A stretch of DNA of 20,094 nucleotides from a virus: IMG/VR virus record IMGVR_UViG_3300028844_000775, positions 1 through 20,094 of that record. One strand, written 5' to 3'. Position numbers and translations under genes: made by a program. The notes beneath the pieces are model-generated. The model did no database searches and had not been told where the DNA came from. It saw nothing but the letters and a program-made list of their open reading frames with translations. Below are positions 510 to 20,094 of the stretch, piece by piece (positions within the stretch are counted from its first letter, which is position 1; each line of letters begins with the position of its first letter).

Positions 510-512
510 TCG

Positions 513-5282: not shown

Positions 5283-5293
5283 GGAAATAACAT

Positions 5294-6910
5294 ATGACTA
5301 TAGCTACATACCCTGATGATGCAATAGCACCTATAACAGCTTTTTCTGTTGTAGCCACTGCTAGTTTTAATAATACTGGATTAACCAGAGTAGCTTTTAA
5401 CTTACCTAGTACTGTTACTAGTAAAGGAGAAGTTACAGCTTTTGATGATGGTATTTTACAATCTACTTCTACTTACTCTTTATCTAATGCAGGTCAAACA
5501 ATAACTTTTGCTGTGGCTCCTAATGCTACTGAACTAGTTGTAAAAACAATATCCCTTCCTGAAAGATATCGTTTAACTAGAACTTTTCCAGATGTAGATG
5601 CCGTAGATTTTAGTAACACAGCCCCTACAGTAGTTAATGGTAATACCTATATTATTAATGGTGTTACGGAAGCTTTTTCTTTTCCCGCTATTGTTAATGT
5701 TACTAGTACTAGTGATTTTATAGTATATGCTTCTGGTGTCTTTCAACAGCCTAGCGCTTATACCTATCCTTCTGTTACTTTAGGTTTTCAGGGTATTGAT
5801 ATAGGTGATAATGCAGCAGTTAACTTATTAACTAATTTTGCAGGTAATTTAACTGATATTAGTCCTAAAGCTCATACTGTTACAATTAATAGTGGCTCTG
5901 CTAGTTTTAGTAGTTCTAATATTGTTCTAGATGCCACTAAATTTATTAATGTACCATCTAGCAATGCTTTTAGTGTGGGAGAAGAAAAATCATTTACTTT
6001 TGATACTATTATAACCCCTGATGCAGGTGCTAGTATGAGTGCTAATCAGACTGTATTAGCCCGTTTTCAAGATGCATCTAACTATTATGCACTAAGAACT
6101 GTAGGATCAAATGCTAATGTAGGATTTGTAGTAAATCAGGGAGGATCCTTAACAGAAATATATGGAGGTAATTGTAATGGTGGTACTACATATAGTGTTG
6201 CTGTGTCGTATGATAAGACTACTGCTAATTTACGTTTGTATGTACAAAATCAATTAGTAAAACATGTAAACTATAATCCTAGTGTATCTCCCTTTACTTC
6301 TGGAGCGCTAACTATTGGAGCAAATGATGATGTATCTGGTGGTTCCGCAGCAAGTCAAGAACGTTATAAAGGTAAAATTGAATATATACGCATGTCTGAC
6401 GGTGGTAGATATAGAACATCTACCATAAATGCACTTACCACTACCGCTACAGTAATTGGAGGAGCACCTTTAGGGGCTATAGATCCTATAGATACTTTAT
6501 CTGTTAGAGTATTTGATTCTTCTGTTAGTGTTAGTGATAGATTTAATTCTATGGCAGATAGAAAACCTGATAAAGGATTTACTACTGATAAAACTTTTGC
6601 AGTAGAAACGTTTACTTCCCATGCTGGATATGAAAAAAGAAGATTAAAATCTAGAAGACCTACACGAAACTATGATTTACAATATACCAATATAACAGGA
6701 GTAGAAAAAACTGCAATTGAAAATTTTTATAATGCTAGAAGCGGAGATTTTGAGTCTTTCAGTTTTGACTTGGCACATTTAAATGAAAGTGGTACAATAA
6801 CTACAAGATTTGATGGGCCTTTAAGTACAACTCAAATCTTGTCTTCAGGTTCTTCTTTAACTGAAAACTTTTATACTGTGGGTTTTAAATTGAAAGAGAC
6901 ATTTGACTAA
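5294..6910 (+). CDS. Distal tail / minor tail protein (gpM or DUF2460-like) with LamG-like insertion
   Basis: A 538-residue beta-rich protein whose position after the tape measure and C-terminal sequence fit a minor or distal tail protein. The last ~100 residues have the family look: HAGYEKRRLKSRRPTRNYDLQYTN, then IENFYNARSGDFESFSFD, ending with VGFKLKETFD. The N-terminal ~170 residues contain two short beta modules with similar cores, AFDDGILQSTSTYSL near 50 and VYASGVFQQPSAYTY near 150. Residues about 180-370 resemble a concanavalin/LamG fold: strand patterns ATKFINVPSS, KSFTFDTIITPD, LRLYVQNQLVKHVNYN and KGKIEYIRMSDGGRY. That is far longer than lambda gpM (about 110 residues). LamG folds often bind glycans, so surface attachment is an inference. 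ATG 5294 has GAGGA (5281-5285) eight bases upstream. Lectin function is unproven. Confidence 0.78.
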   Translation: MTIATYPDDAIAPITAFSVVATASFNNTGLTRVAFNLPSTVTSKGEVTAFDDGILQSTSTYSLSNAGQTITFAVAPNATELVVKTISLPERYRLTRTFPDVDAVDFSNTAPTVVNGNTYIINGVTEAFSFPAIVNVTSTSDFIVYASGVFQQPSAYTYPSVTLGFQGIDIGDNAAVNLLTNFAGNLTDISPKAHTVTINSGSASFSSSNIVLDATKFINVPSSNAFSVGEEKSFTFDTIITPDAGASMSANQTVLARFQDASNYYALRTVGSNANVGFVVNQGGSLTEIYGGNCNGGTTYSVAVSYDKTTANLRLYVQNQLVKHVNYNPSVSPFTSGALTIGANDDVSGGSAASQERYKGKIEYIRMSDGGRYRTSTINALTTTATVIGGAPLGAIDPIDTLSVRVFDSSVSVSDRFNSMADRKPDKGFTTDKTFAVETFTSHAGYEKRRLKSRRPTRNYDLQYTNITGVEKTAIENFYNARSGDFESFSFDLAHLNESGTITTRFDGPLSTTQILSSGSSLTENFYTVGFKLKETFD

Positions 6911-8484
6911 TGACTGCTAGAAATTACGACATAATACTAACTGTAGCAGATGCTACAGATTTTGTCTCAGGTAATGCTATTGTAGGTGTTACAAGTGCTA
7001 CGGTGGGGTTTATTGCTAATGTTAATATTACAGCTAAACAACTAAAAGTTAAACTAAATAATGTAAAACAAGAGTTTCATGATAGTGAGACTATTACTTC
7101 TAATAGTGTAGTTATAAGTGGTACTGCAAATGGTGTATTAAATACTCTTACAGTACCTTTTCAATCTAATGTAAGAGCAAGTGAAACAACCACAGCTACT
7201 ACTACTATAGCTTCTCAAGCTCCTAGTCCTTTTATAGCAGAAAAAAATGCTTTTACTCAAAATCCAATAGTAAGGCTATATGAAATATACTATCCAGGTG
7301 AGTGGTTTCCTACAACTCCAGAAGGAAATCCTTCTGGAGATGGAGAAGGACTATCATGGCCTACTAATTTTCCTTTAAAATTTGCTGATGTTGCAGGAGA
7401 TTTAGTATCTGACTTACAATATAACGTAACTTATAATGGAGAATCTTATATACCTTTTCCTGTAAATTTAACTAGTATTAGCCAGGCTACTGATGGACAA
7501 ATTAATGAACTTACACTAACTGTATTTAATGTTGACAATATCATATCTACTTTAGTAGAAGATCCTTACATTGTAGGTAATAATACGTCTAATGCTTGTG
7601 TTGCTAATGTTAATGGTGTGCCTTGTCATGGTATTGATCCCAGAACTATTAATTTTACACCAGCCCAAGTGGGCAATGTTGGTGAAATAGCTTTTGACAC
7701 TTTAACAAGAGCAAGAGGAAATGGACTTGCTTATAGTGCAGATGTTGTTAGCCTATATGGAAAATCCAATGCTTCTTTTACAAAAGAGCAAACAGAGTCT
7801 GTTAAAGGAACTTGGCGATCATTAAAAAATGATTCTAGAGATTTAGTAGGGGGTGTGGTAAATATTAAAACTACTTTTTCAAACTTTTTAGATGTCTGGC
7901 CTGAACACAGTTCTATTAAATATTTTACAGCAAATGTAATTGAAGTTTATAATGCTATGCCTTATAGAGTTGGTGACAGTGTACGCTCTTCTAGAGGCTC
8001 TACCACTGCGACAATACAAAGCATACAAGAAAATAGATTTTTATTCTTAACTAACGAGTTAGAATCTAATACTACTGTAGGAGATGATATTTTTATTATA
8101 AATGCAGATGCAGATACTGAATCCTATATAGAAGATAACTTTAAAGTTGATCAACTAGAATCTCTAGATACAACAACTGCCGATTTTAATTTAGTTACGT
8201 GGTTGCAATATTTTAAACAAGTAACTCCAAGACGTAAATACTATAAAAATACATGTCAATGGCAGTACAAAGGTGAAGAGTGTCAGTATCCTGGGCCAGC
8301 AGGGGGTACTATACCTGGCACTACTCTTACAGCTAATACTAATCCTATTGCAGCAGATAATACAACTGCTTCGGGTCCTGAAGGTGATATATGTGGTAAA
8401 AATATATTAGCATGTACTATCAGAAATAACTCAATACATTTTGGAGGTTTCCCTGCAACAGGACGAACAATACCCAAACAATAA
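6910..8484 (+). CDS. Minor tail protein L-like tail-tip protein with Fe-S cysteine ligands
   Basis: A 524-residue protein whose stop/start overlap (TAATG at 6908-6912) couples it to the preceding gene. The C-terminus matches lambda gpL: C449 and C458 (CQWQYKGEEC), C495 (ICGK), C502 (ACTIRNN), then FGGFP. In lambda gpL-type proteins four C-terminal cysteines hold an iron-sulfur cluster at the tail tip; spacing and surrounding residues here keep that pattern. The core around residues 115-345 includes IVRLYEIYYPGEW and a PCHGIDPRTINFTPAQ region typical of gpL-like folds. Lambda gpL is about 230 residues; the excess is two beta modules of similar type, one at the N-terminus (about 15-80) and one inserted at about 350-415 (YRVGDSVRSSRGSTTATI). 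Two more cysteines, C230 and C239, lie outside the cluster. The last 44 nt overlap the radical SAM frame. Confidence 0.88.
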   Translation: MTARNYDIILTVADATDFVSGNAIVGVTSATVGFIANVNITAKQLKVKLNNVKQEFHDSETITSNSVVISGTANGVLNTLTVPFQSNVRASETTTATTTIASQAPSPFIAEKNAFTQNPIVRLYEIYYPGEWFPTTPEGNPSGDGEGLSWPTNFPLKFADVAGDLVSDLQYNVTYNGESYIPFPVNLTSISQATDGQINELTLTVFNVDNIISTLVEDPYIVGNNTSNACVANVNGVPCHGIDPRTINFTPAQVGNVGEIAFDTLTRARGNGLAYSADVVSLYGKSNASFTKEQTESVKGTWRSLKNDSRDLVGGVVNIKTTFSNFLDVWPEHSSIKYFTANVIEVYNAMPYRVGDSVRSSRGSTTATIQSIQENRFLFLTNELESNTTVGDDIFIINADADTESYIEDNFKVDQLESLDTTTADFNLVTWLQYFKQVTPRRKYYKNTCQWQYKGEECQYPGPAGGTIPGTTLTANTNPIAADNTTASGPEGDICGKNILACTIRNNSIHFGGFPATGRTIPKQ

Positions 8485-9652
8485 AATTAAAGGTTGCATA
8501 CTTCCTTGGATGCATATTTTTGGGGGATTAACTGGTAATTTTTATTTATGCTGTCATGCACAATTCCAAACAGATACTACTATAGTAGGAACCTATGATC
8601 AAGCCTTAGGTGATATATGGAATAGTGAGAAATATAAAAAAACACGTTTAGATTTTTTAAATAATAAAATACCTAGTGAATGTATAAGAGCATGTTATGA
8701 TAAAGAAAAACAAGGTAGTGATAGTAACAGATTACAAGTAAATAAACGATTTTCTAAAGATGGATATCTACAATCTCAGACTAATGAAGATGGAAGTTTA
8801 GATAATAAACCTACATATTTAGATATTAGATTTGGTAATTTGTGTAACTTTAAATGTAGAATGTGTGGTCCTGATGCCTCTACTAGTTGGTATAAAGACA
8901 CCCTAGAAACGGGCTGGTCTAAAACTATGGACTACTATACTGATAATAAAGATTTTTGGGCAGACGTTCCACAATTTATTCCTGATCTAGAAGAAGTATA
9001 TTTTGCAGGAGGTGAACCTTTTATACAAGAAGGTCATTATAAGATGCTTACATTACTTATAGAATCTGGTTATGCTAAAAATATACACCTAAGCTATAAT
9101 ACAAATTTAAGTTATCATAAATTTAAAAAATATAATCTTCCCGAACTATGGGCTCACTTTAAAAAAGTATCTTTATGGCCTAGTGTAGACGGATACGGAA
9201 GTCGCGTAGAGTATTCTAGAAAGGGATTATCCTGGTCTAAATTTGAAAAACATGCTATTATGTTTAAAGACAATATAACTACGATAAGCTCTGTAATAAG
9301 TATATATAGTATAACATCAATGCCTGACTTAATACTATGGTGTAAACGTAATAATTTTAATTTTTATGGAACAACACTAATTCAACCATCTGAACAAAAG
9401 GTTACTTGTCTGCCTAAAGAAACAAAACAAGATATAATAAAATTATATAAAAAGTTTACTAATGATTATAAAAAATTATTAACTAGGCACGATATAGAAC
9501 AGATTAAAAGTTGGTTATCTTTTATGGTTAGTACAGATGATTCTTATTTACTGCCTACATTTAAAAAAGAACAAGAAAGATTAGACTTATTACGTAATGA
9601 GTCATTTACTAAAACTTTTCCGGAATTTACATCATGGTACGAAACTATATAG
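8441..9652 (+). CDS. Radical SAM protein with N-terminal twitch-like cysteine region
   Basis: A radical S-adenosylmethionine enzyme of up to 403 residues. The CX3CX2C cluster motif is C135-NFK-C139-RM-C142 within YLDIRFGNLCNFKCRMCGPD, and the SAM-binding GGE is at 190-192 (YFAGGEPF). Before it, C19, C37-C38, C81 and C85 form a second cysteine set (GCILPW, YLCCHAQF, CIRACYDKE), as in radical SAM families with an N-terminal half-SPASM or twitch domain that binds an auxiliary Fe-S cluster. Such enzymes commonly modify peptides or small molecules; the substrate here is unknown. It sits between gpL- and gpK-like genes, overlapping both neighbours (44 and 19 nt), so it is translated with tail-tip genes. 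The start is uncertain: TTG 8441 lacks a Shine-Dalgarno site, CTG 8453 follows GGAGG (8443-8447), and ATG 8510 would remove the conserved C19. Confidence 0.9.
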   Translation: MEVSLQQDEQYPNNKIKGCILPWMHIFGGLTGNFYLCCHAQFQTDTTIVGTYDQALGDIWNSEKYKKTRLDFLNNKIPSECIRACYDKEKQGSDSNRLQVNKRFSKDGYLQSQTNEDGSLDNKPTYLDIRFGNLCNFKCRMCGPDASTSWYKDTLETGWSKTMDYYTDNKDFWADVPQFIPDLEEVYFAGGEPFIQEGHYKMLTLLIESGYAKNIHLSYNTNLSYHKFKKYNLPELWAHFKKVSLWPSVDGYGSRVEYSRKGLSWSKFEKHAIMFKDNITTISSVISIYSITSMPDLILWCKRNNFNFYGTTLIQPSEQKVTCLPKETKQDIIKLYKKFTNDYKKLLTRHDIEQIKSWLSFMVSTDDSYLLPTFKKEQERLDLLRNESFTKTFPEFTSWYETI

Positions 9653-10023
9653 GTATACCTCATTCTTATGACGAAATAAACTGTATTACACTAATTAAAA
9701 ATTTTTATCATACTGAGTTGAATTTACAATTTTCTTTGCCTAATTACCCTCTTTCTAGGCATTGGATTAAAGAATTTACTACAGTAAGTATAGATAAATG
9801 GGCAGCTCAATGTGCTAAAAAAGTAAGTTTGACAAATGCTAAAGATTATGATGTAATAGCATTTAAGTCAGAAAAAACAAATTTAATAATACATTTTGGA
9901 ATGTACTTAATGGCATCTAAAATGTTACACATCGAAGAAGGGGGGCTTTCGCGTGTAGAAACTTTATCAGATTATTGGATAGAGAATATACATTCGATAT
10001 ATAGACATGACAGCTTGGTATAA
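9634..10023 (+). CDS. NlpC/P60-like cysteine peptidase, first copy (gpK C-domain-like)
   Basis: A 129-residue single-domain protein with the NlpC/P60 layout. The likely nucleophile is C17 in SYDEINCITLIKNFY, the likely catalytic His is H87 in LIIHFGMYL, and H99 in KMLHIEEGGLS is a plausible third residue. The ending SDYWIENIHSIYRHDSLV matches the usual beta-strand close of phage members. In lambda gpK this domain is fused behind a JAMM domain; here it stands alone. The family cleaves peptide bonds in peptidoglycan stems or processes tail proteins. The role at the tail tip, cutting the cell wall on infection or maturing the tip, is inferred. ATG 9634 overlaps the radical SAM gene by 19 nt and the next gene overlaps its end by 17 nt. 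Confidence 0.8.
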   Translation: MVRNYIGIPHSYDEINCITLIKNFYHTELNLQFSLPNYPLSRHWIKEFTTVSIDKWAAQCAKKVSLTNAKDYDVIAFKSEKTNLIIHFGMYLMASKMLHIEEGGLSRVETLSDYWIENIHSIYRHDSLV

Positions 10024-10438
10024 TAAATATAAAGATTTTCCATATGTACATTTAGGTAATAACGCAGAAACAGGGATTGATTGTTTTAATCTCTGTAAAT
10101 TAGTGTACTTAAATGAGTTAGGTATAGATATTCCTTACACTAGTGATCACTTTTGTAAGATAGTAGACGAAGATTGGTACAGTAAGACACATGAGCGTTA
10201 TTTTGAAATAGGAGGTGCTGCTACTGATACTTATGGTTGGAGAAAAGTTAAAGAACCTAAACTTTATGACATTATAACTATGAGTTTAGGTGCTACAAAT
10301 GTAACTAATCACTGTGCTTTATATGTTGATAAAAATAAAATGTTACAAACCATGATTAAGCATACAAGCTGGATAGCTCCTTATGGAAACTATTACAAAC
10401 AATATACTACAGGGATATATAGATGGAAAGATTTGTAA
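10007..10438 (+). CDS. NlpC/P60-like cysteine peptidase, second copy
   Basis: A 143-residue protein with a clearer NlpC/P60 signature than its neighbour: HLGNNAETGIDCFNLCKLVY places the likely nucleophile at C26, NHCALYV the likely catalytic His at H102, and MIKHTSWIAPY a possible third residue at H119. It ends GIYRW, as many phage NlpC/P60 proteins do. It is not a simple repeat of the upstream gene. The segments before the Cys and the loop between Cys and His differ, so the two probably have different substrates or come from separate acquisitions. ATG 10007 overlaps the upstream gene by 17 nt and its end overlaps the JAMM gene by 16 nt. Expected role is cleavage of peptidoglycan stem peptides or of a tail-tip partner. 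Confidence 0.83.
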   Translation: MTAWYNKYKDFPYVHLGNNAETGIDCFNLCKLVYLNELGIDIPYTSDHFCKIVDEDWYSKTHERYFEIGGAATDTYGWRKVKEPKLYDIITMSLGATNVTNHCALYVDKNKMLQTMIKHTSWIAPYGNYYKQYTTGIYRWKDL

Positions 10439-10794
10439 AGTTAAAAGAAGATATGAATGCACACGCTATGAGAGACTATCCTAAAGAGTGTGTTGGTATT
10501 GTTACTAATGACTTTACTTATGTACCTTGTACTAATATATCCACTTATCCTAAACAAACTTTTATATTAGATCCTGCAGACTTAGTTAGGAATGATGGCA
10601 ACATATGGGGTATTTTTCACTCCCATCCAGGAGATGAAAATCCCATACCAAGTAAAGAAGATAAAGTAAGTGCAGCTTTTCAAGAGTATAAATTTTTAGT
10701 AGGATTTAACAATAAATTTTATATATATTGGTTAGATCATAACGTAGACGCACTCATATTTGATGAGTTTAAGGAAGAACATCTTGTTAATTAA
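10423..10794 (+). CDS. JAB/JAMM metallopeptidase (gpK N-domain-like)
   Basis: A 123-residue stand-alone MPN+/JAMM domain with the complete zinc site: E22 in YPKECVGIV, H66 and H68 in GIFHSHPGDENPIPSKED, S77 and D80. The spacing HxHPx7SxxD is exact, so it should be catalytically competent. In lambda gpK this domain is the N-terminal half, followed by NlpC/P60; here it is a separate gene placed after two NlpC/P60 genes. JAMM proteins of phage tails are thought to act in tail-tip assembly or protein cleavage. Their exact substrate is not settled. ATG 10423 lies within the end of the previous gene (16-nt overlap). Its last codons carry the Shine-Dalgarno site of the gpI-like gene. Confidence 0.9.
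   Translation: MERFVKLKEDMNAHAMRDYPKECVGIVTNDFTYVPCTNISTYPKQTFILDPADLVRNDGNIWGIFHSHPGDENPIPSKEDKVSAAFQEYKFLVGFNNKFYIYWLDHNVDALIFDEFKEEHLVN
10771..10777 (+). promoter_or_regulatory. Ribosome binding site favouring TTG 10784 for the gpI-like gene
   Basis: AAGGAAG (10771-10777) lies 6 nt before TTG 10784. The alternative starts TTG 10760 and ATG 10763 lie upstream of it and have no comparable site. The TTG 10784 start gives MLINLKIHS, which begins at the first beta strand as expected. Confidence 0.5.
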
Positions 10795-11434
10795 TCTTAA
10801 AATACACTCAGCTTATAGTAAATTTTTTACAGAAAAGTCATATACGCTAGAAGCGTATACAGCTAGTGATGTTTTATTCTATCTTAAAGCATTACATCCT
10901 AAATTTTCTAAATATATGATTCAAGTACATTCTGGTGTTTCAGAAGAAGGAATCTCTATACTAGATAGTAAATTAAATCAAATTTCGGATGATATGTTAG
11001 AAGTTAAAAAGTTTAAAGAGGGAGAGACAATTCATTTAGTTCCTAATATATCAGGCGGGGGTGGTAAACGTTTTAGAAATGCACTTCTTTTTATGGCGCT
11101 TATTGTTGCAGCTCCTTATATTATGAGTTATTTAGGTACCGTAGGCTCAAGTTTGGGTATAGGTGCTGGTGCTCCTTTAAATGCTATACCCCAATTGGGC
11201 GCAGTAAATGTAGGTGCAGGTGCAAGTACAGGATTAAGCGTTATGAAAACTATTGGACTTAATTTGGCTATGTCAGGCATTACAGCTCTAATGACTAAAT
11301 CTCCTGCACAAAGAGCTAGTAAACAAACTGATGCTACAACAAGAGATGCTGGTATGTTTGGTAGTTTAACTAATAGTTCTACTTGGTGGTCAGTTTTTAA
11401 GTGGGTATATAAGTTCTATATCTCATGGAAGTAG
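10784..11434 (+). CDS. Tail assembly protein I-like (C-terminus apparently frameshifted)
   Basis: A gpI-like tail-tip protein of 216 residues from TTG 10784 (224 if started upstream). The first ~95 residues form a small beta-grasp-like domain ending EGETIHLVPNISGGGGKRF, as in gpI proteins. Next come a hydrophobic stretch (NALLFMALIVAAPYIMSYLG), a Gly/Ala-rich linker with a second hydrophobic run (TIGLNLAMSGITALM), and a conserved-looking RDAGMFGSLTNSS. After that, gpI proteins normally read into a Pro-x-x-Tyr-Gly segment and a final strand region. Here the frame gives the implausible Trp- and Lys-rich STWWSVFKWVYKFYISWK and stops at 11434. The expected continuation is in frame +1 (see 11370-11474). 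gpI works with gpL, gpK and gpJ in tail-tip assembly. Confidence 0.8.
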   Translation: MLINLKIHSAYSKFFTEKSYTLEAYTASDVLFYLKALHPKFSKYMIQVHSGVSEEGISILDSKLNQISDDMLEVKKFKEGETIHLVPNISGGGGKRFRNALLFMALIVAAPYIMSYLGTVGSSLGIGAGAPLNAIPQLGAVNVGAGASTGLSVMKTIGLNLAMSGITALMTKSPAQRASKQTDATTRDAGMFGSLTNSSTWWSVFKWVYKFYISWK

Positions 11435-11474
11435 TGACACAATCAGTGTAGGAGCGCAATTTGATGGCACATAG
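11370..11474 (+). pseudogene. Displaced C-terminal reading frame of the gpI-like gene
   Basis: In frame +1 relative to the gpI-like gene, the sequence from about 11385 reads GGQFLSGYISSISHGSSDTI, then SVGAQFDGT and TAG at 11472-11474. This resembles the normal gpI ending (a VG..IS.G. strand pattern). It overlaps the next gene's start by about 11 nt, like the other junctions in this cluster. The join to the upstream frame falls near 11381-11385, after NSST. The segment normally containing Pro-x-Tyr-Gly seems absent, so a deletion of roughly 40-45 nt that also shifted the frame is my reading. An assembly error or a recoding event are alternatives. Confidence 0.5.
11449..11454 (+). promoter_or_regulatory. 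Ribosome binding site of the gpJ-like gene
   Basis: TAGGAG (11449-11454) precedes TTG 11461 by 6 nt and ATG 11464 by 9 nt. The two codons are adjacent and in frame; ATG is preferred. Confidence 0.55.
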
Positions 11475-14400
11475 AAATTTTATTAATCATTCTAATACGC
11501 TAGTTCCTCAGATACAAGGTGCAAAAGGCGGTAAAGGAGGAGGCGGTCAACCTTATGAGCCAACAGAAGATCCTCAAAGTTTATTTTCAACTGACATTCT
11601 CTTTGTAGTCATAGGACTAGGAGAGGGGCCTGTATATAGAATTAATCCTAATGGTCCTCAAGATATACAATTAACAGATAGTTCAATTGATGATCTTATT
11701 AATCTAGATGGTGATGGTCTTGAAAATACACAAAAATTTAAAACATTATCCACTACTGGTACAACGGTTCAGGGTAGATTAGATACATTTGGAGAAACAA
11801 TTACTACTCCTCAAAATTTTGCATCTTCTGTTATTTTAAGACACGGAAGTAGTGGAATACCTGCAACTGGTGTTACTCTACAAGAAACTTCTGCTAAAGA
11901 CTGGGATGCTTTAGAATTTCAATTTTTGATAACATCTCTTCAAACAATTACTGATGAAGGGGATTTATTACGACACAGTATTTCAGTAGCTATAACAGTA
12001 TTTAATAGAACTGGAACGACTCAAATTGCTAGTGTTTCTAGAACTATAAATGGTAAAACAAATACTTCTTTTAAATTTACAGTAAAAATTCAAATACCTG
12101 AAGCATCTAAAAGTACGGATGGATATAGATTTAGTGTATCAAAAACCTCTGGAGATTCTACTAGTTCTGGTACAAATGATGATATACAGTTAGTAGGATG
12201 GAATGAGATAGAAAATTCTCCACAAGCTTATCCTAGAACTGCTCATATAGGCTATGCCTTAAGAGCTGGTGACGAGCACAATGGTATACCAACTTTTACT
12301 TCTTTAGTTAAAGGATTAGTACATAAAGTACCTTCTAATTATAATCAACCTACTCTAGTAACAGGAGAAATTGATTGGCGTCATATAGAAGTTCCTTCTA
12401 CGGGAGCTAATAGTCCTGCTACTGCTGGTTATTACTTACAACAGTCAGGTACTAATGTACAAACAAGTGCTACTATAAATATTTATAGAGGCACTTGGGA
12501 TGGAACTTTTGTATATTCGTGGTCTCAAAATCCCGTATGGATTATATATGATATATTAACTAATAAAACATATGGTTTGAGCATACCAGAAGAAAATATA
12601 GATAAATATAGATTCTACCAAATTGCACAATTTTGTGATGCTTGTGATTTTACTACAGGTAATTTCGTAGGAGTAGATGGATTATCTGATGGGACTTTTA
12701 GAAGTAAACCTAGAAACACATTTACAAGTATTAGAGAAAACCAACTTGGACTACTTCAAGGTACTAAAATTAAAGAAAGAAGATTTATCTTAGATATAAC
12801 TATTGCTGATCAGACTCAATCTTTTGATATTTTAAATAGTTTAGCTGCAAGTTTTAGAGGTGCTATAATTTACGCTCATGGTAAAGTAACACTAGCTTGT
12901 GATTTGCCTGAAGAGACTCCTGTTGCGGTATTTAATGAAACTAATATAAAAGAGAATACTTTTATAATAGGAGGCAATAAGGAAAGTGAAGTATTAACTG
13001 GCGTAGATGTTAGTTATATTGATCCTACAAATCATTTTAAAAGAGAAACAGTTCGAATTGACCAGCTAGGTAGTAATGATGGAATTAGAAAAACTGAAAT
13101 AGAGAATATCCAATCTCTAGATTTAGCCGGAGTTACTAGACGAAGTCAGGCGTTAAGATTTGCACAGTATCAAATAGCTTCTTCTAGATACTTAAAGAGA
13201 ACTACTACTTTTACTACTAGTGTAGATGCTTTACAGCTAGCTCCTGGAGATGTGATATCCGTAGCTTTTCAGGCAAGTGGTATAGCTTATGGTTTTGGTG
13301 GAAAAATAGAAAAAGATTCTGCAGTTACTTCATCTAATACTAATGTATTTTTAGAACATTATACTGTTCCGTCTCTTAGTGCAAGTAATTTTGGAACTTC
13401 AAATACTGGTCCTTTAGCTTTAAGAGTTATTAAAGCAACTAGTGATAGAATTGATTTATACATAGTTTCAAATAGTGCTTTTGCTCTTTCTACTACAGAT
13501 AATGTTACTTCGGGAAGTGATAGGGCTACTGTTAATCCTATTAAAAGATTTAATCCTATAACCAGTTCTTGGGATAACTATACTGCTTTTACTGCTAATA
13601 ATGTTCCTAAAAAAGGAGATTTATGGACATTTGGAGAACTTGTAAAAGAAGATACAAATATTTATAGCTCTAAAACTGATAAACTTTTTAAAGTAACTCA
13701 AATAGAACGTGAAATGGATACTAATGAAGTTAATCTATCAGCTGTAGAATATATATCTAATGTATATGTAGATTCAGATACTTTTATTGATTATAAACCT
13801 ACTGCCTATACTGATATACAATCTGCTTTAACTGTTCCTCCTGTGCCTAATTTTAATTTTTTTGCTAGTCCTAGACAGCATACTGATGGATCAATAGTTC
13901 TAACTGGTGTACTAGAAACGTCTACTGAACGAGACGGATTCGGTATAACTTATATTACTGAATATGAAATGTCTAAACCATCTGCAGAGTCTCTAGTAGC
14001 TAATGCAAATTTATCTGGAATTAGTGGTCAGACTATTCAGGTATCTGATGCTAATGTCCTACTAGAAACTGGTTCTGTAACTATAGCAGGTAAAAATGGT
14101 TTTTCAAGTATTGTAGGTGAGATAAAATTATTATGTACAGACGTTAGTATTGTAGATACTGCATCAGGTACTGTAGATGGTAATGTAGAGTTAACTATAC
14201 AGGGTTTTGGTCAAGTATTTGATGAAAATTTTCAATGTAATATACTAGAAGCTAATGATAGTGGTGTATTTGCAGGATTAAAAGGTACAGATAATATTAT
14301 CATTCCTATAAAGGAAAAAGATCAAGAACAGGGTTTATTAAATTTTATAGGACATGCAGGTACTATTACTGCTGTTAGTCAACCTATAACTGGATTTACT

Positions 14401-17400
14401 TTAGCATCTGATAAAGTAAAAATAGAAAATAAAAGAACTGATGATGTAACTTTAGTTACCAAGATACCCGAGCCTCCATTCTATATTAAATTAAATCAAC
14501 TTTTAGATTCTAGACATTATTCTAATAATAGTTTTTATGTATCTGGATCTGAATCTACATTTGTAAAATCAGGAGAAATAAATGGTGATGATTCTACTAC
14601 TATTGATTTACCGGTAAGACCTAGAGATAAAGCTTTTGTTCGTTTATTTATAGATGGTACAGAGCGAACTGCAGGTCAGTTTACCTTGAATAACGATAAT
14701 GTACAAATGAATGCAAATATAGTATACAATAGTACTGCTGCAGAAACAGCTTTTAGAGCAGAGGTAGATTACTATAATGTCCCAATATTTGAGATAGGAG
14801 ACAATGTTCAGTCATCTTTTGATAGTGTTTTTTCTATATCAAATACTAGTTATGATGTTGCTTCTGCTAAATATAATGCTGCATTAACTGCTAATTACAT
14901 ATATAAAATACAAACAGCTACTACACCTTCTAATAATTTAAGTGGCTTTACTTTTACTAATATTTCTATTAATCCTGTAGGTACTATTAGCAATATTTCT
15001 GGAGGGATAGCTACTTTTGAATATGATACAGGACAATATACTGGTAAATTTCATTTAGCTAATAATCGCGTGTATAGTTTAGAAACTGGTTCTGAATTTG
15101 AGCAAATATTTCTAACCAAGGATGGACATACACCCGAATTAACAATTGGTACAACATCTGTTAGAGCTAGAAATAGAAGTAGGGGAGGTAGGACTAGCGC
15201 ATTTAATACAAAATCTGTTAAACTAGGTAATTCTCCTCTTCCTATACAAAAGGTAGAAAATGCTAGTATTATTGAATCGTTATATCGTGAACAAACTGGA
15301 GGAGTTGCTGTTCGTGTTACTCTACAATTTGATCATATACAACAACAGAGTGTAACAGATTATGAAATATCTTATAAATTAGATGCTGTTGAGGATGTGG
15401 GTACTAATGACGGAGGCACTGATTTAACATCTTTTAATACTGTAAAAGTTCCTGCCACCGGAGTTGACAGTGATGGTAAAATTAGATTTACTGTTAATGG
15501 TATAAATAGAGGACCAACTAGTGATGCTAGAAATGTCCTATTTAGAATTGTACCTTTAAATAAAGATATAAGAGGAATAACTGCTACTATAAGTAAATCT
15601 ATTATTGGTAAAACAGATAAACCCTCAAATATATTTAATTTTACTGGCGGTCAACAGACTGATCAAATTACTTTATTGTGGTCTTATGCTCGAGGAGCAG
15701 ATGGAGAATTATCAGATATTGATCTTAAAGAGGTAGTTATAAAAAGACTACCAGGAACATTAACAAATAGTATAGAAAATTTTGTTTTAGCAGATGACCT
15801 AGTAACAGTATCTGCAGGTACTGCTCGTAAATCTATACCTATAGATACTTTTGGCGAATTTACTTATTTTGCAAGAACTAGGGATACTAGCGGTAATTTT
15901 AGTGATGATGTAGTTGCAATTACTCTTATTACCTCTAGACCTATTAGAAGTACTGTAGTTGCTGCATTTAATGAAGATAGTCCTTCTGTTAATTTTACTT
16001 CTATAACTAATACAAATGCAGGAGAAGATAATTTTCCTTCTTTTGCTGATTCTAATACAGGTGGTTTAGCTTTTAATAAGTCTGATTCACCATTTGATTC
16101 TAGTACTACAGATAACGCTAATGGTACTTCTAGTGGTTGGTCAGCTACTGGTGCTGCTACTGATCTATTAGCTGCTGGCACTGCTGAGTATATAACACAA
16201 ATTAGAGATTTTGGATCAACTGTAACAGGTTCTATATTTGTAGATATCGAAGCTACTCAGTCTGTACAAACTAATTGGACAGATACTAAAGAAACGTATA
16301 TATCAGGTGTTACAGAAGTGTCAGGTACTAGTGGTGTACTAAAAGAAGTTCAATTTGGAGGAATTGGTCATGTACTAGGATTTAGTAATACTGCGGTAAC
16401 TAATCCAAGATTTGATGCAAATAATCAGACTTTTATGTCAGGTGGTGTTGATGGTAATGTGTTTGCTATATGGAATGATGGACAATATACTGGTAATGTC
16501 ATAGCTATTACAGGAATTACAAAAGCTAGTCCCGCAGTTATAACTACTGATGGTGTTCATGGTATAGCTAATGGTGATAGAGTTATTATTCATGATGTAA
16601 ATGGTATGACAGAGATAAATGACAGAGAACTTTATGTAAACGCTCCTTCTACAACTACTATACAACTATATACTGATACAGGTAGAACCTCAGCTCTTAA
16701 CTCTAGTGGTTTTGGTACGTATACTTCTTCTGGTGTAGTAGACGAAGGTGATTATTCAAATTCAAACTCGTATGCACTAATAGCAGGACTTATAGATGCT
16801 GATGAAATTAGATTAGGTGCTAGTTACCATGCAAATGGGGATGCTACGGGTGGAAATGCTTTAGCTAATATAACAAGTATAGCTTCTAATTATAAATTAG
16901 TAAATTTAAAACAATATAATGATACAGGTTCTGGTGATACTTTTGCAGGTACATTAGGAGCTATTACAGCACAGACACAAATTAGAACTACTACTGCTGC
17001 TGATGCTCAATTATTTCATGCAAATGGTAACGTAATTACTACTCAATTTGTAGGTGGTACAGTTAATGATGGATTTCAAACTTACCAAGCTGGTAGTAGA
17101 ACGTTTAGACAGTTCCAATTAAAATTTATATTAAAAAATGATCAGCCCGAAGAATTTGACTTTACAATTGATAAATTTAGGTATACTATAGAAAAGGATA
17201 CAGTTACTTTTACAGATACTACTGCATATAACGCTACTACTAAAACTATTGATATTACTAGTGCAGGTTTTTTAACTAGGCCTGTGGTAAGTTACGCAAT
17301 GCTAGATGAGGATTCAAATAAGCCACATATAGTAGTAACTACAGCTGCCTCAAATCAAGCAATTAGTTATCAAGTATTTAAAAGTAGTGATGGAAGCGCA

Positions 17401-17451
17401 GGTTCTACCTCTGCAGGTATGTCTGTAATGATGACAGCAACAGGAGTTTAA
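11464..17451 (+). CDS. Central tail fibre / host specificity protein (gpJ-like)
   Basis: A giant protein of about 1995 residues in the gpJ position. The N-terminus has the Gly-rich GAKGGKGGGGQPYEP stretch and FSTDILFVVIGLGEGPVYRI (about 40-60) seen in gpJ-type proteins. Residues about 355-395 hold the family hallmark NPVWIIYDILTNKTYGL followed by IDKYRFYQIAQFCD. About 440-505 contain SFDILNSLAASFRGAIIYAHG and further gpJ core. Fibronectin III-like sections lie near 1260-1380 and 1385-1500. Near 1680-1770 is a beta module reading TTDGVHGIANGDRVIIHDVN, then GMTEINDRELYV, a type known from phage tails and resembling the FCCH domain family. The last ~100 residues (beta-rich, PVVSYAMLDEDSNKPHI) are the likely receptor-contacting end. 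Lambda gpJ is 1132 residues, so this one is much expanded. The stop abuts the next start. Confidence 0.92.
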   Translation: MAHRNFINHSNTLVPQIQGAKGGKGGGGQPYEPTEDPQSLFSTDILFVVIGLGEGPVYRINPNGPQDIQLTDSSIDDLINLDGDGLENTQKFKTLSTTGTTVQGRLDTFGETITTPQNFASSVILRHGSSGIPATGVTLQETSAKDWDALEFQFLITSLQTITDEGDLLRHSISVAITVFNRTGTTQIASVSRTINGKTNTSFKFTVKIQIPEASKSTDGYRFSVSKTSGDSTSSGTNDDIQLVGWNEIENSPQAYPRTAHIGYALRAGDEHNGIPTFTSLVKGLVHKVPSNYNQPTLVTGEIDWRHIEVPSTGANSPATAGYYLQQSGTNVQTSATINIYRGTWDGTFVYSWSQNPVWIIYDILTNKTYGLSIPEENIDKYRFYQIAQFCDACDFTTGNFVGVDGLSDGTFRSKPRNTFTSIRENQLGLLQGTKIKERRFILDITIADQTQSFDILNSLAASFRGAIIYAHGKVTLACDLPEETPVAVFNETNIKENTFIIGGNKESEVLTGVDVSYIDPTNHFKRETVRIDQLGSNDGIRKTEIENIQSLDLAGVTRRSQALRFAQYQIASSRYLKRTTTFTTSVDALQLAPGDVISVAFQASGIAYGFGGKIEKDSAVTSSNTNVFLEHYTVPSLSASNFGTSNTGPLALRVIKATSDRIDLYIVSNSAFALSTTDNVTSGSDRATVNPIKRFNPITSSWDNYTAFTANNVPKKGDLWTFGELVKEDTNIYSSKTDKLFKVTQIEREMDTNEVNLSAVEYISNVYVDSDTFIDYKPTAYTDIQSALTVPPVPNFNFFASPRQHTDGSIVLTGVLETSTERDGFGITYITEYEMSKPSAESLVANANLSGISGQTIQVSDANVLLETGSVTIAGKNGFSSIVGEIKLLCTDVSIVDTASGTVDGNVELTIQGFGQVFDENFQCNILEANDSGVFAGLKGTDNIIIPIKEKDQEQGLLNFIGHAGTITAVSQPITGFTLASDKVKIENKRTDDVTLVTKIPEPPFYIKLNQLLDSRHYSNNSFYVSGSESTFVKSGEINGDDSTTIDLPVRPRDKAFVRLFIDGTERTAGQFTLNNDNVQMNANIVYNSTAAETAFRAEVDYYNVPIFEIGDNVQSSFDSVFSISNTSYDVASAKYNAALTANYIYKIQTATTPSNNLSGFTFTNISINPVGTISNISGGIATFEYDTGQYTGKFHLANNRVYSLETGSEFEQIFLTKDGHTPELTIGTTSVRARNRSRGGRTSAFNTKSVKLGNSPLPIQKVENASIIESLYREQTGGVAVRVTLQFDHIQQQSVTDYEISYKLDAVEDVGTNDGGTDLTSFNTVKVPATGVDSDGKIRFTVNGINRGPTSDARNVLFRIVPLNKDIRGITATISKSIIGKTDKPSNIFNFTGGQQTDQITLLWSYARGADGELSDIDLKEVVIKRLPGTLTNSIENFVLADDLVTVSAGTARKSIPIDTFGEFTYFARTRDTSGNFSDDVVAITLITSRPIRSTVVAAFNEDSPSVNFTSITNTNAGEDNFPSFADSNTGGLAFNKSDSPFDSSTTDNANGTSSGWSATGAATDLLAAGTAEYITQIRDFGSTVTGSIFVDIEATQSVQTNWTDTKETYISGVTEVSGTSGVLKEVQFGGIGHVLGFSNTAVTNPRFDANNQTFMSGGVDGNVFAIWNDGQYTGNVIAITGITKASPAVITTDGVHGIANGDRVIIHDVNGMTEINDRELYVNAPSTTTIQLYTDTGRTSALNSSGFGTYTSSGVVDEGDYSNSNSYALIAGLIDADEIRLGASYHANGDATGGNALANITSIASNYKLVNLKQYNDTGSGDTFAGTLGAITAQTQIRTTTAADAQLFHANGNVITTQFVGGTVNDGFQTYQAGSRTFRQFQLKFILKNDQPEEFDFTIDKFRYTIEKDTVTFTDTTAYNATTKTIDITSAGFLTRPVVSYAMLDEDSNKPHIVVTTAASNQAISYQVFKSSDGSAGSTSAGMSVMMTATGV

Positions 17452-18702
17452 ATGGCATTACAAGATTCAAATACATATATAGAACCTACAGCAGGTACTT
17501 CACTGAATGCTTCTCGTACTCAGTTTAATAACTCTTTACGCTCATTACTAACTAACTTTAGAAGCTCAAGTCCTCCTGCTACTGTAAATATTAGTGCATC
17601 TGGTGAAGGTATTAGTGTGCCCGATGGTACTATAATGCATTTTGCTAATTCTAATGTTAATGCTTTGTTTGTGTCTGATTCTAGTAATAAAAAATCTTCT
17701 CCAATTGGTGGTAACTTTACTAGAAGTGGTATAGGTCACCGCAATGAGAATGGTATTACAGTAATGATGGCTAATGCTCCTTCTTATGAAATAGGAGAGT
17801 TAGCAACCACTGTTACTGCAGGTGCTGCCGCAGCTAATGCTAGATTATATCTTGTAACAGCTAATAACAGAACTGCTGCTGATTTTATTGATGTAGGTAT
17901 ACCTCCTACTAATGGATCTGTTGTAAATACTATGATTGCTATTAATGGTGTTACCTCTGATAGAGTTAATCTGACTACAAGTGGTGTATCTACTAATAAT
18001 CTTACAATAACTGCAAGTACTGCTGGTGGAGGTAAAAAATGGTTTCCAGCAGCTGATGGTGTAGGTCATGCAGCTCTTAAGATATCTAGTATAGGTGCTA
18101 GTGATAACACTGCTATATTATTTAATTTTGGTAGTTCTAGTGCTAATGTATCTTTAGCACATCAACCAAGTGTTGCATCTACTAAAAATGGTCTAAACAT
18201 TGTGCAACAAGATGGCACTTACGCACCTATAGCAGCAAATGTTGTACTATCTTCTGCTATAACAGGATCTGGCACAGCACCTGTACCTTTATTACCTGCA
18301 GGTACTATAGTAGCAACTGGTGGTACAGTGTCTGCTGGTTGGTTAGAATGCAATGGACAAGCTGTAAATAGAACTACTTATGCAGCTTTATTTGCTGCTA
18401 TAGGCACTACATATGGTGCAGGAGATGGTTCATCTACTTTTCTTGTTCCTAACTTTGAAAGTAAAGTTCTAATAGGTGAATCTTCTACATTTTCTATGGG
18501 GGCAGGTGCGGGATCTTTTGCTTCTGGAGGAACTATTACTACTGCTTCTGGCTCCGCATCACTAAGTCTTGCTACAACTTCTGTTGCTACTAGTGCTAAA
18601 GATAGTAGTACAGCCGCTGTAGTATCAGGTGTTACCGCTGGTGGTCACACTCATACAGCTGTAATTCCGCATGCTGTTGCACGTTATATAATAAAAACAT
18701 AA
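17452..18702 (+). CDS. Tail collar domain fibre protein
   Basis: A 416-residue tail protein with a phage tail collar domain near residues 280-345: LPAGTIVATGGTVSAGWLEC, NGQAVNRTTYAALFAAIGTT, then YGAGDGSSTFLVPNF. That is the T4 gp12-type pattern (PxGTI, GWLxCNGqavsR..Y..LFa.iGttyG.GdGstTFxvPd). The C-terminus GGHTHTAVIPHAVARYIIKT carries a small His cluster of the kind that binds metal in some fibre trimers, then the usual YIIK ending. The N-terminal 270 residues are Ser/Asn/Thr-rich and beta-like, probably a shaft. ATG 17452 follows the gpJ stop directly, with AGGAG at 17442-17446. The likely role is cell-surface adhesion or a fibre tip; the receptor cannot be told from sequence. Confidence 0.88.
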   Translation: MALQDSNTYIEPTAGTSLNASRTQFNNSLRSLLTNFRSSSPPATVNISASGEGISVPDGTIMHFANSNVNALFVSDSSNKKSSPIGGNFTRSGIGHRNENGITVMMANAPSYEIGELATTVTAGAAAANARLYLVTANNRTAADFIDVGIPPTNGSVVNTMIAINGVTSDRVNLTTSGVSTNNLTITASTAGGGKKWFPAADGVGHAALKISSIGASDNTAILFNFGSSSANVSLAHQPSVASTKNGLNIVQQDGTYAPIAANVVLSSAITGSGTAPVPLLPAGTIVATGGTVSAGWLECNGQAVNRTTYAALFAAIGTTYGAGDGSSTFLVPNFESKVLIGESSTFSMGAGAGSFASGGTITTASGSASLSLATTSVATSAKDSSTAAVVSGVTAGGHTHTAVIPHAVARYIIKT

Positions 18703-18712
18703 GAGGGAAATA

Positions 18713-19282
18713 ATGGAATATATAAAAGTTCATATAGATGAGATGTTTCAAAAAACTGTATTTTTTGAATATAGACTTATAGAAGAAGATAAAAGCAATG
18801 ATTTAGTTAGTAGAGCTTTTCCTTTTGCTAAATTAATAGAAAGAGAACCACATATAGAAAAGTTAGTAGAGGGTACTATCATAGGTATTTATTATGAACA
18901 GCGTGGTTCTAATACCGTAAGTGAGCGTCAATGGCTTGATAAAAGTGAAGAGCTAGACAATGATACTATTGACTATATTAAAAAGCTTGCTATAAAAATA
19001 TGTGTAGATAAATACTATGATGAAATATTAAAACCACCAACAATTGATGAACAGGTAGAAGATTTTATAAAAGAATTTTTTGAAGAAGGTGATTCAGAAC
19101 CTTTAGAACAAAAAGACTTTTTAGCTGAGTTTTTTGAAGAACTATCTGATGATAATACGGAAACAACTGATATATCCTCTAAAAAAACTATATCTTCTCA
19201 AATAGAAGAAAAATTTAATAATACTACTTTAGGACAAAAAGACTTTTTAGCTGAGTTTTTTGATCAATTAGACGACGAGTAG
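18713..19282 (+). CDS. Unrecognised acidic protein with repeated DFxxEFF motif
   Basis: I do not recognise a family for this 189-residue protein. The first ~105 residues look like a folded alpha/beta domain (MEYIKVHIDEMFQKTVFFEY, GTIIGIYYEQRGS, IKKLAIKICVDKYYDEI). The C-terminal ~75 residues are very acidic and contain three copies of one motif: EDFIKEFFEEG at 116-126, QKDFLAEFFEEL at 133-144 and QKDFLAEFFDQL at 175-186. The last two come from an exact 30-bp DNA repeat. Linkers between copies are low-complexity and probably disordered. Lying between a collar protein and a tail fibre, it could be a fibre-assembly chaperone, or a minor fibre component using the motif as a repeated docking peptide. 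ATG 18713 is preceded by GAGGG (18703-18707). No signal peptide or membrane segment is seen. Confidence 0.75.
   Translation: MEYIKVHIDEMFQKTVFFEYRLIEEDKSNDLVSRAFPFAKLIEREPHIEKLVEGTIIGIYYEQRGSNTVSERQWLDKSEELDNDTIDYIKKLAIKICVDKYYDEILKPPTIDEQVEDFIKEFFEEGDSEPLEQKDFLAEFFEELSDDNTETTDISSKKTISSQIEEKFNNTTLGQKDFLAEFFDQLDDE
19108..19137 (+). repeat. 30-bp direct repeat, copy 1 (DFLAEFF motif)
   Basis: This stretch is identical base for base to 19234-19263, 126 bp (42 codons) away in the same frame. It encodes QKDFLAEFF. Identity at synonymous positions points to recent duplication or gene conversion rather than protein-level constraint alone. Confidence 0.9.
19234..19263 (+). repeat. 30-bp direct repeat, copy 2 (DFLAEFF motif)
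   Basis: Exact second copy of 19108-19137. A diverged third version of the peptide (EDFIKEFFEEG) is encoded at 19058-19090. Confidence 0.9.
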
Positions 19283-19295: not shown

Positions 19296-20094
19296 ATGGC
19301 GCTTACGCGTGTAACATCTACAGTCTTAGAGTCTAATGCAGTTTCTGCAGAAAAAATGGCTAATGGTTCTATAGTAACCAGACTATATGGTATAAAATCT
19401 ATTGAAGCTAAACATTTAGCTGCTAGTGCAAATACTGCAAGTTTAACTACGAATGTAAATTTATTACAAAGTAATATTAATACTGTTCATGCTAATGTAG
19501 TAGCAGCAGAAGCTAATATAATATCTGCTAATACTGCAGTATTTAACGCGGCTAAAGCAAATGATTTTGCAACTTTTACGTCTCTAACTGGACTTATTAA
19601 TGCTACTACTAATAATGTTAATACAATTTCGGCTAATGCTACAAGTATAGAGACTAGAAGGGTAGCTAATATTGCTGGAGCTTTATCTACTATTACAACA
19701 GCAGATTTAACAGCTTCAAGAGCTGTAGTATCTGATGGTAGTGGTAAAGTAGCTGTTTCAGATGTTACTAGTACAGAACTTGGTTACGTAGATGGCGTTA
19801 CTAGCGCAATACAAACTCAATTAGATGCTGGAGTGACTAACGCTGCAGCTGTTGTTACTGAGGCACTAGGTATAGAAGCTAGAAGAGTTGCTAATATAGC
19901 CGGAGCTGTTTCAAGTATTACAACTTCTGATTTAACAGCCTCTAGAGCCCTTGTATCTAGTGGTAGTGGTAAAGTAGCTGTTTTATCATCTGTAACATCA
20001 ACAGAATTAGGTTATGTTGATGCTACTAGCTCTATACAAACTCAGTTAAGTGCAGGTGTTACAAATACTAACTCTGTTAAGGCAAATGTAGATG
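19296..20094 (+). CDS. Repetitive tail fibre protein (5' part)
   Basis: The frame is open from ATG 19296 to the right edge, showing 266 residues. The start MALTRVTSTVLESNAVSAEK is typical of phage fibre N-termini. Residues about 45-115 are Ala/Asn-rich with heptad-like spacing (ANTAS, SANTAVFNAAKAN), suggesting a trimeric coiled coil. From residue 118 on there are tandem units of 75 codons, each with ARRVANIAGA or a close variant, then ITT.DLTASRA.VS.GSGKVAV and TSTELGYVD..(T/S)SAIQTQL-type segments. The TSTELGYVDGVTSAIQTQL core is widespread in phage tail fibres and probably forms the trimeric shaft. The C-terminal receptor-binding tip lies beyond the window. It is probably the side or tip fibre used in host recognition. 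Confidence 0.85.
   Translation, partial: MALTRVTSTVLESNAVSAEKMANGSIVTRLYGIKSIEAKHLAASANTASLTTNVNLLQSNINTVHANVVAAEANIISANTAVFNAAKANDFATFTSLTGLINATTNNVNTISANATSIETRRVANIAGALSTITTADLTASRAVVSDGSGKVAVSDVTSTELGYVDGVTSAIQTQLDAGVTNAAAVVTEALGIEARRVANIAGAVSSITTSDLTASRALVSSGSGKVAVLSSVTSTELGYVDATSSIQTQLSAGVTNTNSVKANVD
19647..20094 (+). repeat. Tandem 75-codon repeats in the tail fibre gene
   Basis: Unit 1 begins at 19647 (IETRRVANIAGALSTITT) and unit 2 at 19872 (IEARRVANIAGAVSSITT), a period of 225 bp. The units agree in most residues but differ at many synonymous bases, so the duplication is not very recent. The second unit is cut by the window end, so the total copy number is unknown. Confidence 0.8.

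Follow-up and report, generated by a model that had tools for sequence, protein, structure and literature searches.

What does a radical S-adenosylmethionine (SAM) enzyme do inside a phage tail-tip operon? The question is raised by a stretch of viral DNA of 20,094 nucleotides (nt) (IMG/VR record IMGVR_UViG_3300028844_000775, positions 1 to 20,094; hereafter the window), in which a gene that we call rSAM1 lies between the genes for a gpL-like hub protein and an NlpC/P60 peptidase-like protein and overlaps both. A preliminary description of the window had suggested that the enzyme acts during tail assembly, perhaps modifying a tail protein, with a passenger metabolic gene as the alternative. We found that related phages carry the gene at the same site, and that a second radical SAM gene, rSAM2, follows the tail-fibre gene in a sister contig. 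Our preferred reading, to which we give a probability of roughly 0.45, is that rSAM1 and rSAM2 mature tail-tip or adhesin proteins before assembly.

The enzyme and its site between gpL and NlpC1

The features of the gene in the window are as follows.

8441..9652, + strand: rSAM1, N-terminal-twitch radical SAM enzyme (open reading frame from TTG, 403 codons open)
8443..8455, + strand: conserved start region within gpL, with GGAGG at 8443-8447 and an in-frame CTG at 8453-8455; probable true start of rSAM1
8495..8695, + strand: predicted twitch domain (one-cluster SPASM-type), C19 to C85, with C19, C37, C81 and C85 as probable ligands (Pfam SPASM, BtrN profile match)
8843..9016, + strand: radical SAM core motifs, C135-C139-C142 and GGE at residues 190-192 (sequence, alignment)

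The N_Twi_rSAM family (NCBIfam NF033640) matched rSAM1 with 359.6 bits (E 2.1e-107), about twice the curated cut-off of 170, and the match covered residues 19-400 of the protein and positions 5-398 of the 398-position profile. Pfam SPASM matched residues 19-85 (30.4 bits, E 4.6e-07; cut-off 21.5), and Pfam Radical_SAM matched residues 130-242 with 27.1 bits, slightly below its gathering score of 29.5. We aligned 64 rows, 32 viral (including the window) and 32 from genome contigs, all with at least 29% identity to the window. C135, C139 and C142 (CX3CX2C) and G190, G191 and E192 were invariant in all 64 rows, at the positions that the preliminary description had read from the sequence. Its set of five N-terminal cysteines was also borne out, since C19, C37, C81 and C85 were invariant in the same alignment and C38 was at least 90% conserved. 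Profile positions 11-85 of rSAM1 matched BtrN (PDB 4m7s and 4m7t; E 2.9e-07 and 3.3e-07, respectively) with the cysteines aligned. By these sequence comparisons rSAM1 has an N-terminal one-cluster twitch domain of the NF033640 type, in which cluster binding is predicted. This differs from the classical C-terminal two-cluster SPASM domain: the auxiliary domain of rSAM1 is N-terminal and has conserved ligands for one cluster.

The AlphaFold2 model of rSAM1 had a predicted local distance difference test score (pLDDT) of 93.5, with values below 50 only at residues 1-13. Foldseek against the PDB returned nine chains at E ≤0.001, all of them radical SAM enzymes; eight were peptide maturases (SkfB, SuiB, and 5wgg/5why, the last of which we take to be CteB) and the ninth was BlsE. 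The E values against maturases of ribosomally synthesized and post-translationally modified peptides (RiPPs) and anSME ranged from 6e-06 to 2e-04, and the template-modelling (TM) scores of the PDB matches were just 0.33-0.41, which limits the inference of a peptide maturase. Structural Z scores were 12.4 for BlsE (root-mean-square deviation [rmsd] 4.1, 218 residues aligned), 11.9 for MoaA, 11.8 for SkfB (rmsd 3.7, 206 aligned) and 11.6 for anSMEcpe (rmsd 4.3, 219 aligned). Because the core scores about equally against peptide and small-molecule enzymes, the fold leaves the substrate class unsettled, and the predicted likeness to peptide maturases reveals no function. Judged by its motifs and predicted fold, rSAM1 is an intact radical SAM enzyme.

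To place the gene among other phages, viral sequences were scanned with the rSAM1 protein (40 loci), the rSAM1 alignment (best 80 of 547), the gpL alignment (best 80 of 383) and the JAB alignment (best 80 of 239). The loci overlapped in part and came to 221, or 222 with the window's own. Both gpL and an NlpC or JAB gene were held by 180 of the 222, and rSAM1 lay between them in 168 of these 180; it did not in the other 12, which represent 10 contigs. The remaining 42 loci lacked one side (23 with rSAM1, 19 too short to judge). Distinct gpL 3' ends numbered 89 in the enzyme-bearing set and 8 in the enzyme-less set. NlpC1 was the next gene in all 168 rSAM1 loci, and by match coordinates the rSAM1 start overlapped gpL in 141 and the rSAM1 end overlapped NlpC1 in 165. 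A further viral scan, led by the closest bacterial protein (best 80 of 543), gave 50 loci, re-cut or new, of which 48 were flanked by gpL and NlpC and 2 were cut by the contig end. Nine of its contigs were new; eight had gpL and NlpC on both sides and one was cut after rSAM1. No copy of rSAM1 was found elsewhere in these loci among the best 80 matches of each scan. Thus, in the viral loci examined, every close rSAM1 homologue on a contig of sufficient length adjoins gpL and NlpC, and the search for homologues beside these genes that the preliminary description had proposed came out in its favour. It had also held that homologues lying mainly outside tail modules would speak against a tail role; this does not apply to the close clade, from about 40% identity upward, and it does apply to the remote relatives. 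A single-contig artefact as a reading of rSAM1 was ruled out by the many viral loci.

The overlap with both neighbours, likewise noted earlier, was confirmed: the gpL end (8484) and the NlpC1 start (9634) both fall within the open reading frame 8441-9652. TTG 8441 was not kept (it is TCG in loci L081, L084 and L085), whereas GGAGG, followed 5 nt on by the in-frame CTG, was kept in every overlapping sequence type displayed (from L001-L089). Therefore, rSAM1 probably starts at CTG 8453 rather than at TTG 8441, and its overlap with gpL would then be 32 nt. In 38 dereplicated loci, the gpL codons over the start region were CCT (Pro) in 38, TTC (Phe) in 37 and GGA (Gly) in 36; the intervening Gly codon was free to vary (16/16/4/2), as were most of the codons for Gly and Pro further upstream. 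The fixed wobble bases in gpL are evidence, at the level of codon usage, that selection maintains the overlap so that the enzyme is translated. Other start arrangements also occur: L038 has an ATG overlapping the gpL stop, and in the L063-L071 class the rSAM1 start lies past the gpL stop.

A tree of rSAM1 was built with 82 rows (40 tail, 42 genome) after near-duplicates, incomplete genome copies, and copies that contained stops or exceeded 460 amino acids (aa) were dropped. The 40 dereplicated tail copies formed one clade with a Shimodaira-Hasegawa-like approximate likelihood ratio (SH-aLRT) support of 100. The tree is best explained by a single entry of rSAM1 into the lambda-type tail-tip operon, followed by inheritance at that site. 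The ratio of nonsynonymous to synonymous substitution rates (dN/dS) of rSAM1 against ten relatives was 0.06-0.25 (0.04-0.33 for its neighbours), which shows purifying selection. A decaying gene was ruled out by the invariant motifs and dN/dS. The only non-tail row within the tail clade was L090, a gene on a Neomarinimicrobiota contig (L090:7878-9065) with chromosomal-type neighbours (DsbD-, AhpC/TSA-, LPP20- and CsgG-type genes); by its setting, it is probably a phage-to-bacterium transfer.

Relatives on genome contigs were more distant. The best of 142 gave 79 loci, with 27-35% identity except for L090 at 49%, and these 79 loci had no match to the other tail genes of the window. Only three INPHARED records matched rSAM1, all at 22-24% identity. 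Some remote bacterial relatives stood in tandem with other radical SAM genes, and some genome loci (e.g., L091, L096, L099, L120, L138, L159 and L165) were represented by a tandem paralogue; these paralogues underlie the bacterial neighbour lists and a small number of the genome rows in the tree. The neighbour-family survey covered 64 of the 79 listed neighbours (15 were omitted, many of them short or cut) and found radical SAM in 11, phosphate acetyl/butyryl transferase in 5 and glycosyltransferase PF00535 in 2. On the binned contig of L120, several radical SAM/SPASM genes stand in tandem within an extended collinear stretch of genes; L110 and L112 have comparable stretches as far as the layout of their genes shows.

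The second enzyme and the surrounding tail genes

The sister contig G001 contains locus L001, which differed from the window by three substitutions over window positions 441-10000 and by one 41-bp stretch in gpI over 10301-11600. G001 continues beyond the end of the window and there encodes the second enzyme.

L305:4333-5325 = G001:C1:21333-22325, just past the window end: rSAM2 (P0002), 330 aa

In G001 the fibre gene and rSAM2 overlap at TAATG, with the rSAM2 start inside the fibre stop codon. The protein contains FRCNAKCPAC (CX3CX2C) and, towards the C-terminus, five cysteines (C219, C238, C239, C296 and C300), all invariant in 16 rows, and it matched PHROG 21308, a radical SAM family. A W_rSAM_matur match reached 42.5 bits, far under the family cut-off of 380, and PADLOC gave a weak partial viperin match (20.4 bits) and nothing else. 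The rSAM2 profile had no sequence match to solved structures. Its model was weak (pLDDT 60.5), and the best fold matches, which are radical SAM enzymes, support only that assignment.

Of 30 records, 22 carried the gene; in one of these the contig end truncates it, and in another it is split in two. The five rSAM1-bearing records lacking rSAM2 end before its site; among the four records without rSAM1, G013 has rSAM2, G015 (51.8 kb) does not, and the other two stop short of the site. Another scan gave 46 loci; in all 44 of them with an intact 5' end, the fibre open reading frame ended no more than 11 nt from rSAM2, and in 40 it overlapped rSAM2. When L358 and L360 were compared with L359, rSAM2 and the two next genes were 99-100% identical and the fibre and DFxxEFF genes 56-63%; by sequence identity, this marks a recent recombination edge near the 3' end of the fibre gene.

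The other tail genes of the window are as follows.

6910..8484, + strand: gpL-like hub protein, 524 aa (TIGR01600, 81.7 bits against a cut-off of 70.75; PF05100)
9634..10023, + strand: NlpC1, NlpC/P60 peptidase-like, overlapping the rSAM1 3' end (Pfam)
10007..10438, + strand: NlpC2, second NlpC/P60 paralogue (Pfam)
10423..10794, + strand: JAB-domain protein, corresponding to the remaining half of a gpK-type protein (Pfam, PHROG)
10760..11434, + strand: gpI-like tail protein (PHROG 32)
11461..17451, + strand: gpJ-like central tip protein, 1996 aa (tblastn)
17452..18702, + strand: tail-collar fibre protein (PF07484)
18713..19282, + strand: DFxxEFF-repeat protein, conserved between the collar and fibre genes (comparison among records)
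19296..20094, + strand: 5' portion of the tail-fibre gene; in G001 the rSAM2 start overlaps the stop of this gene, beyond the window

The preliminary description had placed the enzyme between gpL-like and gpK-like genes. The position was right, but there is no single gpK, which is split into NlpC1, NlpC2 and JAB (9634-10794). The gpJ-like assignment comes from proteins annotated as tail tip protein J, to which about a quarter of the sequence aligns at 22-26% identity. At 11384, the window's gpI is without the 41 bp found in near-identical L001, so that the frame is shifted and the protein is shorter (224 versus 251 aa); this is either an assembly error or a real variant. Both NlpC1 and rSAM1 were missing from L210, L211 and L215. 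A segment resembling gpJ residues ~1660-1754 was found upstream of the gpL match, between g538 and gpL, in L003, L023, L024, L026, L042 and others, and there the gpL match begins near residue 78-81; this arrangement suggests a domain exchange between gpJ and gpL. The DFxxEFF repeats near the protein C-terminus number three in L305 and two in L314. As a partner exclusive to rSAM1, the DFxxEFF-repeat protein was rejected, being present in 24 of 30 records, including G013, which lacks rSAM1.

Readings of the role of the two enzymes

If the enzymes mature tail proteins, rSAM1 would be made together with gpL and NlpC late in infection and, with SAM and a host electron donor, would form a 5'-deoxyadenosyl radical. 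The radical would modify a newly made tail-tip or adhesin protein, at a side chain or in the backbone, before assembly takes place, presumably to the benefit of the phage. The first candidate substrate would be gpL, whose gene lies directly upstream and overlaps, and the others would be its tip partners; rSAM2 stands to the tail-fibre gene as rSAM1 does to gpL. The position, the overlap, the single descent, the purifying selection and the mirrored arrangement of rSAM2 together favour a role tied to tail proteins. The intact motifs and fold also count in its favour, as do the radical SAM cassettes in the host-recognition clusters of pelagimyophages.

Several observations weigh against such a role. 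In the 12 enzyme-less loci, gpL was followed by an NlpC gene with 2-48 nt between matches, and no rSAM1 copy was found elsewhere on the ten contigs concerned, most of which are fragments and one of which is 51.8 kb. On an NlpC2+JAB tree of 57 rows, the presence and absence of rSAM1 needed three changes, at least two of them forced by well-supported branches. rSAM1 has been lost on about three occasions, which left the tail genes intact and put no other gene in its place. No column of gpL, NlpC1, NlpC2, JAB, gpI or gpJ cleanly separated enzyme-bearing from enzyme-less loci (g538 columns were disregarded, having one enzyme-less row); weak presence-linked differences with exceptions were seen, such as gpI H46 and gpJ H172.

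Furthermore, alleles of rSAM1 were exchanged in place, with 45-56% identity between alleles while gpL, NlpC1, NlpC2 and JAB were 77-100% identical. Among 86 close pairs (59 dereplicated loci), a drop of at least 20 points below the median identity was seen just in rSAM1 (7 pairs, four lineages) and in the fast-evolving gpI (17 pairs). Between L221 and L224, rSAM1 alone was exchanged (51% identity, compared with 91-97% for g538, gpL, NlpC1, NlpC2, JAB and gpI). L083 was a fifth case, in which identity to the window was 56% for rSAM1, 100% for gpL and 91% for the part of NlpC1 that could be compared. Such losses and lone allele swaps weaken a role on tail proteins. The partial distance correlations of rSAM1 (NlpC2 0.34, NlpC1 0.26, gpI 0.19, gpL 0.01 and JAB 0.01) are too confounded by linkage to serve as a test of co-evolution, and they do not favour gpL. 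Among the 64 surveyed neighbours of bacterial relatives, no common family hinted at a protein substrate. Vertical descent alone can also yield a fixed position.

These points make a passenger gene (moron) a substantial possibility. Under this explanation, rSAM1 acts on a host metabolite, a glycan or a small molecule, landed in the operon once and was kept there by synteny and homologous recombination. The repeated losses with an unchanged tail, and the in-place swaps independent of neighbours, are what it would predict, and the remote relatives stand in non-tail settings, in radical SAM tandems or beside varied families. A remote rSAM2 relative in Pelagibacter phage Mosig lies in a cluster annotated as methylases, aminotransferases, a carbamoyltransferase and Asp/Arg hydroxylases, and G001 elsewhere encodes glycosyltransferase-, aminotransferase- and PhyH-like proteins; both settings would suit a passenger. 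However, a passenger is harder to reconcile with a whole clade that occupies one site between two tail genes overlapping it, with the constraint on its start region, and with an rSAM2 that repeats the arrangement after the fibre gene.

A role in host interaction or counter-defence, in which rSAM1 alters a host or phage component to evade defence or widen adsorption and the swaps reflect an arms race, seems unlikely. It would accommodate the five lineages in which rSAM1 is only 45-56% identical between otherwise close phages, as well as L189/L192, in which rSAM1 (52%), the fibre (53%) and g538 (69%) diverged and gpL (94%) and JAB (96%) did not; L221/L224, however, differ in rSAM1 alone. The rSAM1 core bears a weak likeness to viperin (E 0.011 in one search; profile match 7.7e-10), and the sole PADLOC match was pVip, weak and partial (20.9 bits, residues 133-225). 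Nevertheless, the viperin families did not claim the protein (NF038283, 18.5 bits against 180; TIGR04278, 17.7 against 450), and rSAM1 has a twitch domain.

We know of no radical SAM enzyme that serves as a cluster scaffold, nor of a gene like rSAM1 in lambda. That rSAM1 helps to build or repair the iron-sulfur (Fe-S) cluster of gpL is highly improbable, and gpL cluster maturation was rejected: the genes are adjacent and overlapping and gpL has four conserved Fe-S cysteines (449, 458, 495 and 502), but these were kept in 7 of 7 aligned enzyme-less loci as in 168 of 168 enzyme-bearing ones, and lambda gpL carries an Fe-S cluster according to the available text of PMC10721106. The preliminary description had linked the enzyme to the Fe-S character of gpL; the cysteines are present, but the connection looks coincidental, because they persist without the enzyme and the enzyme is lost or swapped without change in its neighbours.

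The maturation of tail-tip or adhesin proteins can be extended, tentatively and with some doubt, to the proposal that a clade of uncultured phages with lambda-type tails installs radical-derived modifications on its own tail tip and fibre by means of a pair of dedicated radical SAM maturases, of which the first is coupled to gpL and the second to the fibre, with swappable alleles tuning the modification; its virions would then carry tail proteins modified by radical SAM chemistry. If the enzymes do act on tail proteins, host recognition would gain an enzyme-made chemistry invisible to sequence-based prediction of host range, and swappable maturase alleles could alter recognition with the adhesin gene untouched. 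If they do not, a conserved phage gene cluster has long harboured an enzyme of another pathway, and this too would call for an explanation. Natural enzyme-minus relatives and allele-swap pairs exist for comparison, so the system is testable either way.

Comparison with known systems

The enzyme family of rSAM1 and phage-borne radical SAM genes are already known. rSAM1 shares the N-terminal twitch domain and radical SAM core of NF033640 proteins; the remote relatives found in that family lie on genome contigs that lack these tail genes, and some of them stand in tandem arrays, whereas the clade of the window is locked to the tail. In BtrN, the twitch domain follows the core, whereas in rSAM1 it precedes the core, and a shared substrate has no support. 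With RiPP maturases (5wgg/5why, SkfB, SuiB) and anSME, rSAM1 has in common a radical SAM core and an auxiliary Fe-S domain; in those enzymes the auxiliary domain is at the opposite end from that of rSAM1. Similar proteins from uncultured phages are present among viral structure models (best TM-score 0.84), so this type of protein is known.

To our knowledge, lambda has no such radical SAM gene. Its tail-tip genes are ordered L, K, I, J in the portion of PMC10721106 available, and the window is alike in gpL, the NlpC and JAB domains, gpI, gpJ and their order. The window differs in splitting gpK in three and in adding a radical SAM gene after gpL; the sister contig adds another after the fibre. 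Our literature search, which covered few subscription journals, found no account of a radical SAM gene in a lambda-type tail-tip operon or of a tail-locked pair.

Among T4-like phages, one marine viral genome has 12 radical SAM genes, as stated in the accessible part of PMC5332604. Two similar pelagimyophages have host-recognition clusters that differ just by radical SAM cassettes, according to the section of PMC7029224 at hand, and these genes likewise lie in the tail-fibre region. As far as that section describes them, the pelagimyophage cassettes are variable islands in T4-like phages, whereas rSAM1 occupies a fixed, overlapping site in a lambda-type operon.

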